Of a stretch of 64,000 nucleotides of DNA, positions 33,865 through 56,717 are shown piece after piece. The position numbers and the translations under genes are program-made. This stretch comes from an uncultured Ilumatobacter sp. Lineage in GTDB: Bacteria; Actinomycetota; Acidimicrobiia; Acidimicrobiales; Ilumatobacteraceae. The stretch spans positions 124,001 to 188,000 of the forward strand of contig CAJQPY010000004.1 in assembly GCA_905480335.1 (NCBI GenBank), written 5' to 3'. The notes below the pieces were generated by a model, which saw only the letters and a program-made list of their open reading frames with translations, had not been told where the DNA came from and searched no databases. Within the stretch, counting starts at the first letter, position 1; each line of letters starts with the position of its first letter.

Positions 33865-37001
<3,137 letters not shown>

Positions 37002-37010
37002 ATGGGGCGG

Positions 37011-37580
37011 TTAGACGACTTCGAATGCCCACCGGTAGCTGCGGGCCGAGTCGCGGCCTTCTTCGGCCTTCCAGAAAATGACCTGCGCCTGATGGCGCCC
37101 TTCGTCGAAACTCTCGATCAACGCGCCGTCGGTGGGCCGGAACGTGATCACTGAGTTACCCGGGTCAAATACTGCGGTCGGCGGCGTTGAGATCTGCTGG
37201 CCGGCGGTCTCGGGAGTGAGGTCACCGCTGAATTCGCCGATTCGCTCCGTCGGAAGTTCGATCCCGTCGATCACCAGTACAGCCTCGTAGCCGAATTGGA
37301 GATCGACAACGATCTGCTCCTGTTGGAACACCTGTTGTGCGTTCTCGACCGGTGAGAGCTCCTCAATCGCATCAGGTCGGTTGACACCGTCGGTCCCGGT
37401 GATAGCGGAAGTCATCCCCCAGGCGATGAGTGCTACTCCGCAGGCGATGACAAAACAGGCCACGAGTACCCCGGTATCAGGCCGTCGCCGTGTTGAGGGC
37501 GTGGGCTTCTCGCTGGCGTCGTTGAGGGAGTTGCCGTCAGCTTCGACGGCTGGCTCGAGATCGCGCTCGGTGTCGCTCAC
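37011..37580 (-). CDS. Single-TM protein with CopC-like extracellular domain
   Basis: TM VLVACFVIACGVALIAWGM; VITFRPTDGALIESFDEGRHQAQVIFW. Confidence 0.6.
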   Translation of the reverse strand: MSDTERDLEPAVEADGNSLNDASEKPTPSTRRRPDTGVLVACFVIACGVALIAWGMTSAITGTDGVNRPDAIEELSPVENAQQVFQQEQIVVDLQFGYEAVLVIDGIELPTERIGEFSGDLTPETAGQQISTPPTAVFDPGNSVITFRPTDGALIESFDEGRHQAQVIFWKAEEGRDSARSYRWAFEVV

Positions 37581-37635
37581 TAGATAAGTGTGCCTGGCGG
37601 TTCCCGAGAACGCGCAGGCGGTAGCGTTTCGGGCG

Positions 37636-40155
37636 GTGGAAAATGTCGACGAACAACGCGGTGGATCGGGCGGGGAATCGCTCGAAGGAACCGTTCTAGC
37701 GGGTCGCTATCGCGTCGCGAGAGTCGTTTCGACGGGCGCGAACACGGTCATCATGGATGGCATCGATCAGCGAAACGACAACGAGGTCACGCTCAAGATC
37801 GTTCGACCCGAACATGCCCAGGATCCTGAGTTCCGACGCAAGTTCACGCGTCTTGCCGAAATATCCAACGCGTTGTCTCACCCGAATATCGCGTCGGTGA
37901 GCGATTGGGGAGAGACCGAATTGCGGGGCGAGTCCACAGTTTTCTGGGTTGTCGATGCGCTAGGCGGTGGAAGTCTGCGTGACCTGCTCGACCGGGGTCG
38001 GCTGCTTCAGCCGGGACAGGCGCTTGTCATCGGGCTCGAAACCTGTCGGGCACTTGATGCGGCGCATCAGAAGGGTCTGTTTCACACCGAGCTGACGCCG
38101 TCGAAGATGGTCTTTGGCGCAGATCGGCGGCTACGCGTGATCGACTTCGGAATGGCTCGCTTGCTTGCCGAGCCGGCCTGGGCCGATGCATCGGCACTTC
38201 CGACGCATGTGGCGCGCTACGCGTCGCCAGAGCAAGCGCTCGGATCGCCGACCGATTCCAAAACTGACGTGTATGCGCTCGCCCTCGTCATGATCGAGGC
38301 CGTCACCGGTGCAGTTCCGTTCGCGGCCGACTCCACCGTCGCGACGTTGTCCGGCCGTGTCGACAAGCTGCTCCCCGTCTCGGCCGACCTGGGGTCCCTC
38401 GCCTCGGTGCTCGAGCGTGCTGGTCGTCCCGAGTCGCCTGATCGATTCACGGCTGCCGAGTTCGGCCGAGCGCTCGTTCAGGCAGCACCTGGCCTGCCCA
38501 AGCCCGAGCCGATTCCGATTCTCTTCACCGGGACCTTCGATACGACAGCAATGCGTCGTCCGACCGACCCCACTGGTGGGGTCGAACGTCCGGCACCGGT
38601 CGCCGGTCTGGCCGGAGTCGACGAGACCGGAACATCTGCTGTCACAGGTGCCGCCGTGGTTGCTGGCGCCGCAGCGGGGGCGGTAGAAGCCGGTGCAGCG
38701 GCGCAGACTTTCGCAGCGGTGGTACCTGGCGCAGATGTTGGCGCGGCACGGTCTGAGCGTGAACTGGATGAGATCCCGCCTGTCGAGGTCGACGCGGATG
38801 ACGTCGCTGCCGAGGATTGTGCCGAACCCGACAACGAGTCAGACGGTATCGGAATAGTCGTGACAGGGCAGGAAGCCGCCGGACCGGAGAGTGTCGGACC
38901 CGAGAAAGCCAAGCTGGAGATTGCCGAGGAAGTTGAACCGACGATCGCCGAGGATCTGGACGCTGCAGACGGCGAGGTGGCTGCTGTGGTCGTCGGTGAA
39001 GTTGCAACAAGCGATGAACTGCCGATCGCGGATGAGCTGGCGGCCGGCGATGAGCCGCTTTCAGAACCGAAGCCGGAGATCTCGGAGGTTGCCGAAGTGG
39101 CAACTCACGCCGTTCCCTCTGCGGGACCTGACACGGACGCTCTGGCTGCGACAACCGCTCTCCCTGCTGTGCACGCCGATGCCGAGGGCGTGGCGAGCGG
39201 GGAGATCTACGATGAAGAGGCGGGCCGGCGGCGGCGAGGCCCCGTGATCCTGTTGATCATGCTGCTACTCGCCGGGCTGGCGGCACTCGGGTACGCGGGT
39301 TCACTGCTGTTGCAGACCAAGTCGTTTGAGGTGCCCGTGCTGGCCGGGGTCCCCGAAGACGAAGCCCTCAATCAGATCGCTGGCAACGGTTGGGAGATCG
39401 ACACGCTCCGGGAGCGCAGCGACACGTTCCCCGAGTTCGACACTGTCATCCGCACCAGGCCCGGGCCGGGTATCGAACTTGATGAGGGCGAACCGTTCAC
39501 TCTCGTGCTCAGTAACGGCCCAGAGTTCCGTACGTTGCCCGAGCTCGAGGCGCTGCCGTTTGATGCGGCGATTGCGGAGTTGGCCGGACTCGGCCTCAGT
39601 GGTGTCGAAGCACCCGAGCGCTTGTTCTCCGAGACCGTGGCACCGGAGTCCGTGATCGCATGGCAAGTCCAGGGCGATGCCGACGGCACCATGCAGGCTG
39701 GCGCCCAAATTCTGCCTGGCGAAACCATTGTCATGACATTATCGATGGGACCCGAACCACGGATTGTTCCGGATTTGACCGGCCAAACCGTTCAGCTCGC
39801 GACTGCGACGCTCGCCGATCTCCAACTCGAGCTCGCACGAGATGACGACCTGTTCAGCGACACCGTGCCAATCGGTCAGACCGTATCGCAGAACCCGGCG
39901 GTGGGTGCATCCCTCGAACGTAACGGCACGGTCACGATTCAGGTATCCAAGGGACCCGACGTCGTGCCGTTCCCCGATCTGACCGGACAGACGTTCACCG
40001 ATGCTCAAACACTGCTGACCAATACCGGCTACGTCATCGGCAGTCTCCTCGGCACGACCGAGGGCAGGTTTGTCGAGGCGACGATTGATGATGCCGACGT
40101 TCTCCCCGGCGACCTGCACCGACGCGGGACCCCAGTCGACCTGATCTTCCTGTAA
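37636..40155 (+). CDS. Ser/Thr kinase-like receptor with one TM and four PASTA domains; probable pseudokinase
   Basis: Kinase fold (VTLKIV, VIDFGMARLL, YASPEQALG, DVYALALVMIE) but HTELTPSK in place of HRDxKxxN and no GxGxxG; TM VILLIMLLLAGLAALGY; four PASTA repeats ending SNGPEF/SMGPEP/SKGPDV/LIFL. Confidence 0.9.
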   Translation: MENVDEQRGGSGGESLEGTVLAGRYRVARVVSTGANTVIMDGIDQRNDNEVTLKIVRPEHAQDPEFRRKFTRLAEISNALSHPNIASVSDWGETELRGESTVFWVVDALGGGSLRDLLDRGRLLQPGQALVIGLETCRALDAAHQKGLFHTELTPSKMVFGADRRLRVIDFGMARLLAEPAWADASALPTHVARYASPEQALGSPTDSKTDVYALALVMIEAVTGAVPFAADSTVATLSGRVDKLLPVSADLGSLASVLERAGRPESPDRFTAAEFGRALVQAAPGLPKPEPIPILFTGTFDTTAMRRPTDPTGGVERPAPVAGLAGVDETGTSAVTGAAVVAGAAAGAVEAGAAAQTFAAVVPGADVGAARSERELDEIPPVEVDADDVAAEDCAEPDNESDGIGIVVTGQEAAGPESVGPEKAKLEIAEEVEPTIAEDLDAADGEVAAVVVGEVATSDELPIADELAAGDEPLSEPKPEISEVAEVATHAVPSAGPDTDALAATTALPAVHADAEGVASGEIYDEEAGRRRRGPVILLIMLLLAGLAALGYAGSLLLQTKSFEVPVLAGVPEDEALNQIAGNGWEIDTLRERSDTFPEFDTVIRTRPGPGIELDEGEPFTLVLSNGPEFRTLPELEALPFDAAIAELAGLGLSGVEAPERLFSETVAPESVIAWQVQGDADGTMQAGAQILPGETIVMTLSMGPEPRIVPDLTGQTVQLATATLADLQLELARDDDLFSDTVPIGQTVSQNPAVGASLERNGTVTIQVSKGPDVVPFPDLTGQTFTDAQTLLTNTGYVIGSLLGTTEGRFVEATIDDADVLPGDLHRRGTPVDLIFL

Positions 40156-55790: not shown

Positions 55791-56717
55791 TCATTGAGTG
55801 GTCACGGTGGCGAGCGCCATCACCATCGCCAGCACGATGAGACCGGCCGCGAAGAGCCGCATGACCGGTCGTCGAGGTGTTGCCGCCTCGTACGCAGTCT
55901 GGGTGACTGCGGCGTGGTCGGTCGCTGCGTCGCTCACGGCTTCGATCCACTCGGAGATGCTCGCATGGCGTTCGGCCGGATTGGCCGACAGCCCGCGGCG
56001 GAGCTCGAAGGCGAGCGGCTCGGTACCGGAAGGCTCGGGTGCGGTCGCCTGATGCGGACCGTTCGGAACCAGGATTCGGTGCCACTCGCTGCCGAACGCT
56101 GCGCGCCCGATGACCCCTGATGCTGAGTACACGTCGGTGCGACCATCGATTGCAGCTCCGGGAATTCGCTGTTCGGGCGCTGTGTAGGCGTCTGCTTCAG
56201 CAGCGGCGGCGAGGTGGCGCTGCTCGGTCTCGAGTGCGAGCCCGAGGTCGGTGAGTAACACCTGCTCACCGGGCGCCACGTTCCGGATCAACACATTGCC
56301 GGGTCTGATGTCACGGTGGACGAGACCAGCGGAGTGCACGACCACGATTGCCGCGCCCAATTCAGTCACGAGCCATTCGATCTCGGCCGGACCGAACGTC
56401 TGTTCATCTTCCAGACGGTCCTCCAGGGCTCCGCCATCGATGAGTTCCATCACTAAGTAGGGGCGTCGCTCAAACTCGCCGGTGTCGTACACAGTAACGA
56501 TACGGTCGCCCGAGAAACCACGAAAGGTTTGCACTGCCGCGACGAAATCAGCTCGCAGCTTGGGGTCCTGAGCGTGCGGCTCGGCGAGCACCTTGACAGC
56601 AACGTCGACGCCGAGCGCCGGGTCGTGAGCGCGGTAGACAACGGCACGCATACCGGATCCGAGCACCCCCAGGACCCTGCGGGATCCGATGCGATCGGGT
56701 AGGACCGGTTTGCTCAT
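55791..56717 (-). CDS. Ser/Thr protein kinase-like protein with a single C-terminal TM and no extracellular domain
   Basis: VAVKVL, HRDIRPGNVLI, LLTDLGLAL (DLG), YTAPEQRIPG, DVYS; TM VMRLFAAGLIVLAMVMALATV at the end. Confidence 0.9.
   Translation of the reverse strand: MSKPVLPDRIGSRRVLGVLGSGMRAVVYRAHDPALGVDVAVKVLAEPHAQDPKLRADFVAAVQTFRGFSGDRIVTVYDTGEFERRPYLVMELIDGGALEDRLEDEQTFGPAEIEWLVTELGAAIVVVHSAGLVHRDIRPGNVLIRNVAPGEQVLLTDLGLALETEQRHLAAAAEADAYTAPEQRIPGAAIDGRTDVYSASGVIGRAAFGSEWHRILVPNGPHQATAPEPSGTEPLAFELRRGLSANPAERHASISEWIEAVSDAATDHAAVTQTAYEAATPRRPVMRLFAAGLIVLAMVMALATVTTQ

Follow-up and report, generated by a model that had tools for sequence, protein, structure and literature searches.

A PASTA-domain receptor of Ilumatobacter with a probable pseudokinase domain, descended from a ligA-linked PASTA kinase

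The status of peptidoglycan is known to be linked to Ser/Thr phosphorylation chiefly through PASTA kinases, whose output is assumed to be kinase activity. Canonical PASTA kinases (PknB of Mycobacterium tuberculosis, Stk1/PknB of Staphylococcus aureus, and also StkP) share a layout of kinase fold, linker, single transmembrane helix and PASTA repeats. In PknB, muropeptides or lipid II are bound by the PASTA domains (PMC6428115, PMC3601408). A second system connected to the cell wall is the pseudokinase domain (ActPs3) of mycobacterial MviN (MurJ), a scaffold that recruits FhaA after PknB has phosphorylated its tail (PMC12599244). A 2025 review of bacterial pseudokinases describes the families ActPs1-3, GLW, CP1, DYD and DLHK; PASTA occurs in its text only within the title of a reference (PMC12599244). 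Here, we focus on a gene in a stretch of 64,000 nucleotides from an uncultured marine Ilumatobacter sp. (the window), whose product has the kinase fold, transmembrane helix and PASTA repeats of PASTA Ser/Thr kinases and, unlike the canonical enzymes, lacks the helix-C Glu and the P+1 Thr as well as the catalytic Asp, Lys and Asn. A preliminary description, made from the letters alone, had proposed a PASTA pseudokinase acting as a ligand-sensing scaffold or allosteric partner, a reading that the comparisons below support.

The open frame (37588-40155, + strand) runs for 855 aa from a GTG, and the GTG at 37636 is the start that fits the conserved N-terminus of the orthologues, MENVDxQR. Pfam matches comprise a Pkinase domain at residues 26-244 (5.8e-24) and PASTA (6.1e-26, two significant stretches). 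The features of the gene are as follows.

37636..40155, + strand: gene of the putative PASTA pseudokinase receptor, 839 aa, GTG start
37705..37959, + strand: kinase N-lobe, residues 24-108 (P0001), eroded, with degraded glycine loop VVSTGANTV, beta3 Lys kept and helix-C Glu lost
37786-37797, + strand: beta3 VTLK, Lys kept
37960..38511, + strand: kinase C-lobe, residues 109-292; its catalytic loop is lost, yet it is the part of the protein under highest constraint (omega)
37984..38007, + strand: LLDRGRLL, with Arg120 and Arg122 invariant in the family and variable in active orthologues
38083..38106, + strand: catalytic loop HTELTPSK, replacing HRDxKPxN (HRDVKPAN in PknB)
38137..38151, + strand: VIDFG, DFG kept
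38218-38235, + strand: YASPEQ, in the activation segment HVARYASPEQ
38368..38430, + strand: family signature LLPVSADLG...VLERAGRP, after helix G through helix H (L245, P247, V248, A250, D251, A256, E260, R264)
38536..38580, + strand: short juxtamembrane motif FDTTAMRRPTDPTGG, which opens the acidic linker
38581..39240, + strand: acidic low-complexity linker rich in Ala, Glu and Asp
about 39244..39303, + strand: single transmembrane helix, approximately residues 537-556, from hydropathy only
39325..40152, + strand: ectodomain with four PASTA-like repeats (segments of 66/77/68/65 aa)

The acidic linker and single predicted transmembrane helix had been recognized beforehand, together with four PASTA repeats. 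When the ectodomain (residue 564 to the end) is cut at SxGP joints, four segments do result, of which only two are significant in Pfam; the count of four holds for the layout. The NCBIfam model PknB_PASTA_kin (NF033483) scores 284.6 bits, below its curated cut-off of 450. An AlphaFold2 model of the kinase domain, of the kind that the preliminary description had proposed, reaches pLDDT 82 and pTM 0.82 from an 11-row alignment, and its best fold in the PDB is PknB 6i2p (Foldseek TM 0.84 by target length, about 30% identity); the kinase fold is therefore predicted to be intact.

Numbered as in M. tuberculosis PknB, the catalytic loop carries the changes R137T, D138E, K140T and N143K, and only two of six key residues (K40, E59, D138, K140, N143 and D156) are kept, namely the beta3 Lys and the DFG Asp. 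The preserved VTLK, DFG and YASPEQ motifs, as well as the exact position of HTELTPSK with its replacement of Asp by Glu, Lys by Thr and Asn by Lys, had been read correctly from the sequence. The glycine loop is degraded as claimed, with Ser at the Gly18 equivalent and the Gly20 equivalent kept. Two further losses had been overlooked: Leu stands at helix-C Glu59 and Val at the P+1 Thr179 (GTAxY to HVARY). From the DFG Asp to the APE Glu there are 29 residues, one fewer than the 30 of PknB. By sequence, a pseudokinase is a protein-kinase fold that lacks at least one of the beta3 Lys, the HRD Asp and the DFG Asp, here the HRD Asp, which is Glu; the alignment with PknB firmly indicates a kinase fold that has lost the catalytic base, the loop Lys and Asn, the helix-C Glu and the P+1 Thr. 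Retention of the beta3 Lys and DFG counts against the pseudokinase reading, as does the fact that some kinases without canonical motifs, such as WNK, are active.

The loop variant is not peculiar to this genome. A search for it in orthologues, suggested earlier, finds HTE[LV][TN]PSK with the beta3 Lys and DFG in 10/10 genus orthologues compared; it is fixed in the genus, where orthologues with an intact HRDxKxxN would have pointed to a recent mutation or error. More widely, the window's subclade is defined by HxExxxxK in 35 genomes, in which E138 and K143 are invariant, Gly20 and the DFG Asp are kept, and the beta3 Lys is kept in 80%. The pocket of this subclade looks re-specified rather than blank and, with these residues held, may still bind a ligand; Mg-free binding of a nucleotide is a guess.

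To place the loss of catalysis, orthologues were sampled in 121 genomes of the GTDB-type family f1, which holds Ilumatobacteraceae. Counted by E-value, about 112/121 have a close orthologue, and the remaining nine, mostly incomplete assemblies, give only paralogue-level scores. At least one of the six key residues is missing from 114/116 aligned family orthologues, and most keep one to three. Only G084 and G117, two members of genus g21, retain the full set of six; 'pseudokinase' is thus not proven for every member, and a loss of these residues throughout the family is ruled out. Their proteins (L130 and L131) have the loops HLDLKPAN and HRDLKPAN and retain both the beta3 Lys and the helix-C Glu; the P+1 Thr is already gone, and DVG is present. 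Other members of g21 are eroded to differing degrees; G084 and G117 are possible intermediates whose sister species are further eroded, and their six residues suggest a gradual loss inside Ilumatobacteraceae.

Outside the family, all six residues are kept in 22/24 orthologues, nearly all from different families of the order. Gene order shows them to be true positional orthologues: ligA lies upstream in nearly all, an SCP2-like gene or an SDR lies downstream in most, and between ligA and the kinase there is a small divergent membrane gene. The upstream genes in the window are as follows.

34776..37001, + strand: ligA, upstream syntenic marker, given as an open frame in which the gene start is not fixed
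37011..37580, - strand: divergent 189-aa predicted single-TM protein between ligA and the kinase; candidate partner

In the tree, the Ilumatobacteraceae orthologues are nested within the intact ones as one clade (98/98); a separate clade (100/100) holds the canonical PknBs of the same order. This nesting indicates that the ancestor was an active second PASTA kinase that later lost catalysis, and the concentration of intact orthologues in other families indicates that the conversion is old. Judged by tree and gene order, it is well established that the gene descends, at its present locus, from an active PASTA kinase that was linked to ligA and was not the canonical PknB, and orthology to the latter is ruled out by the separate clade and the different locus. 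The canonical PASTA PknB, which the preliminary description had advised looking for, is present elsewhere in the genome (contig C1:6653, 763 aa, with HRDIKPANI, DFG and GTATY), and an intact one occurs in each family genome examined. The genome has four Pkinase loci: this one on C1, one on C22 (661 aa), one at window 55791-56717 (- strand) and the gene studied; among them, PASTA matches are confined to the C1 kinase and the gene studied. The protein at 55791-56717 is a divergent kinase-like protein of 308 aa with a C-terminal TM; it has HRDIRPGN (catalytic-loop Lys to Arg), DLG for DFG and a much shortened activation segment, and may itself be impaired.

Loss of catalytic residues can reflect either decay or a new constraint, and the two lobes of the kinase domain differ in this respect. 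With one sequence per genus, N-lobe identity between genera is 31% in the family versus 65% among intact orthologues, whereas C-lobe identity is 57% versus 61%. The canonical PknB of eleven genomes of the same family has the opposite balance (N-lobe 82%, C-lobe 72%). Omega (NG86), computed with the three closest orthologues, is 0.041-0.050 for the C-lobe and 0.10-0.14 for the N-lobe, compared with 0.17-0.22 for PASTA where measurable and 0.22-0.45 over part of the linker; all are approximate because dS exceeds 1 in every pair. These values make a strong case for purifying selection that is intense and concentrated in the kinase C-lobe. In addition, 11 C-lobe positions are newly near-invariant, that is, at least 95% one residue in the family and at most 50% the same residue in intact orthologues: R120, R122, L245, P247, V248, A250, D251, A256, E260, R264 and G277 (P0001 numbering). 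For some of them, invariance partly reflects shared ancestry, given sampling at family level; the catalytic positions of the same sequences vary freely. The pattern is not that of decay: the catalytic half appears to have been released, and the C-lobe held and re-specified.

The best explanation, which we consider quite probable, is a receptor pseudokinase whose PASTA domains are anchored to peptidoglycan or lipid II and whose C-lobe docks a cytoplasmic partner. By analogy with PASTA biology, the ectodomain would bind muropeptides or lipid II and place the receptor at the growing wall or septum. Strong selection on the C-lobe across the family suggests a protein-docking role; from conservation, the docking surface would comprise the RGR loop, the LPVSAD loop after helix G and the ExxxR of helix H, and with such a surface the receptor would serve as scaffold or allosteric partner rather than as enzyme. 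There are three candidate partners. Canonical PknB could be contacted via the N-lobe: in an otherwise eroded lobe, Arg10, which we take to be a residue of the PknB back-to-back dimer interface, is kept in 113/116 orthologues and Asp76 in 96/116. Leu33 of the same interface is lost in most family orthologues, which weakens the PknB-heterodimer version; the roles of Leu33 and Asp76 are taken from PknB mutant structures among the structural matches. The conserved divergent membrane protein next door (37011-37580) is another candidate. Its start lies about 55 bp from that of the putative pseudokinase, it has no match in Pfam or NCBIfam, and it is conserved at the same position in most of the order, at 25-31% in the families with an intact kinase and at 33-78% within Ilumatobacteraceae. 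The third is an FHA protein that would bind a phosphorylated juxtamembrane Thr, as FhaA does in the MviN-FhaA pair. The FDTTAMRRPTDPTGG motif also occurs in several related genera, while the rest of the acidic linker is unconserved; FDT..RRPTDPTGG is conserved in only part of the family, so the Thr motif is ruled out as a general mechanism.

These data bear unequally on the other explanations. That the variant arose by sequencing or assembly error, or by a recent inactivating mutation in one strain, has a negligible chance, since the isolate Ilumatobacter nonamiensis (L042) and independent MAGs share the loop; nothing was found in its favour, and the independent genomes refute it. A kinase domain free of constraint and decaying, with only the PASTA anchor mattering, would accord with the eroded N-lobe, the extremely varied catalytic-loop sequences and the repeated losses elsewhere in the order. 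Such decay is very improbable, however, when constraint on the protein peaks in the C-lobe, where omega is several-fold below that of PASTA and near-invariant residues have been gained, and when the gene is kept in nearly all of the family genomes, many of them of 1.4-2 Mb.

The protein might instead be a still-active atypical kinase or another transferase, with Glu152 as the base and Lys157 standing in for the metal-binding Asn. AMPylation and glutamylation are known for other kinase-fold pseudokinases, the window's subclade keeps the beta3 Lys, Gly20 and DFG Asp, and the invariance of E138 and K143 in its 35 genomes resembles selection in the pocket. Against this stand the replacement of catalytic Asp, Lys and Asn, helix-C Glu and P+1 Thr alike, and the behaviour of sister subclades, which lose the beta3 Lys (65/116) and the DFG Asp (46/116) and still keep the same C-lobe signature; the family-wide function thus does not appear to need the pocket, and we regard continued catalysis as unlikely. 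Less remote, if still doubtful, is a decoy or dominant-negative regulator that sets the PknB threshold by competing for muropeptides or by forming unproductive heterodimers. It is favoured by the identical PASTA architecture, by the canonical PknB in each family genome examined and by the retained R10 and D76; it is disfavoured by the loss in most orthologues of L33, mutants of which serve to break the PknB dimer, and by a selection signal that lies in the C-lobe and not on the N-lobe dimer face.

Losses are also seen outside Ilumatobacteraceae. In f22, the orthologues of G057, G161 and G170 form one group with broken catalytic loops. G157 of the same family (L229) has HSAITPTN with the glycine loop, beta3 Lys, helix-C Glu, DFG and GTARY intact; its loss of catalysis looks recent and separate. 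G046, the only sampled genome of f11, has a PASTA orthologue (L105/L233) with HRGITPGN, the same ligA synteny and a very long branch, and the f16 orthologue (G051), with the loop HGRLSPAH, likewise sits on a long branch. G046 also has a 439-aa frame (L235, G046:C1:1476790-1477806) that matches the PASTA half of its protein and is interrupted by a single TGA; it may be a third PASTA gene, now broken. A single clade for all broken-loop orthologues of the first tree is rejected (AU p = 0.0245), and one common origin for every pseudokinase orthologue of the order is accordingly disfavoured on this one set. In the second tree, parsimony gives 5 changes (bootstrap 3-5), of which well-supported branches alone force only 1. 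Recurrence of catalytic loss across the order is likely but not nailed down. A broader scenario, which we advance tentatively and hold to be slightly short of an even chance, is that a ligA-linked second PASTA kinase of Acidimicrobiales became a receptor pseudokinase several times independently (throughout Ilumatobacteraceae, in f11, in f16 and at least once, probably twice, in f22). Its essential job would be non-catalytic, and in the present lineage a newly evolved C-lobe docking surface would couple peptidoglycan sensing to signalling by binding and not by phosphorylation.

If the receptor pseudokinase reading is true, a class of receptors has kept a wall-binding half and a kinase C-lobe and has dropped catalysis, a natural experiment in which phosphorylation is uncoupled from sensing and scaffolding. 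Orthologues in the order form a graded series, from intact through near-intact (genus g21) and partly eroded to fully re-specified, and the non-catalytic share of the PASTA kinase role is therefore directly testable by orthologue swaps.

Among described pseudokinases, ActPs3 of MviN resembles the window protein in being actinobacterial, membrane-linked and connected to the cell wall. It differs in its fusion to the MurJ flippase, VALT at beta3, a deletion in the activation loop and the absence of PASTA, whereas the window protein has the beta3 Lys and DFG, a loop of near normal length and a PASTA anchor. A MviN-like Thr tail motif (FDTTAMRRPTDPTGG) and four FHA matches are present in the window's genome. 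Its MurJ, a frame of 491 aa, contains no kinase-like domain and has no room for one, which rules out an analogue of MviN by gene fusion. Among eukaryotes, the Tribbles pseudokinases carry Lys or Arg where the catalytic loop normally has its metal-binding Asn, and they function as scaffolds; the replacement and the proposed function are alike, while the lineage is unrelated and has no receptor architecture.

ActPs1, ActPs2, GLW, CP1, DYD and DLHK share with the window protein a degenerate Hanks-type domain, and several are actinobacterial and membrane-linked, but their defining motif changes are different. ActPs2 has a beta3 Arg, Asn for the HRD Asp, a DFG deletion and large insertions (PMC12599244), as against a beta3 Lys, Glu at HRD, an intact DFG and no such insertion here. 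In ActPs1 all three catalytic residues are substituted and many members have a PQQ domain (PMC12599244), whereas two of the three are kept in the window protein, which has no PQQ match. DYD is defined by beta3 Lys to Arg and a DYD motif (PMC12599244), in place of which the window protein has Lys and DFG. Membership in ActPs1, ActPs2, ActPs3 and DYD is thus ruled out. Full-text literature searches, largely without subscription papers, found no description of a PASTA pseudokinase receptor among the papers listed, and an earlier one may exist. The combination of PASTA and pseudokinase is apparently an undescribed architecture, which would define a class of pseudokinase receptors in bacteria that arose from PASTA receptor kinases, and would add to the small set of bacterial pseudokinase families.
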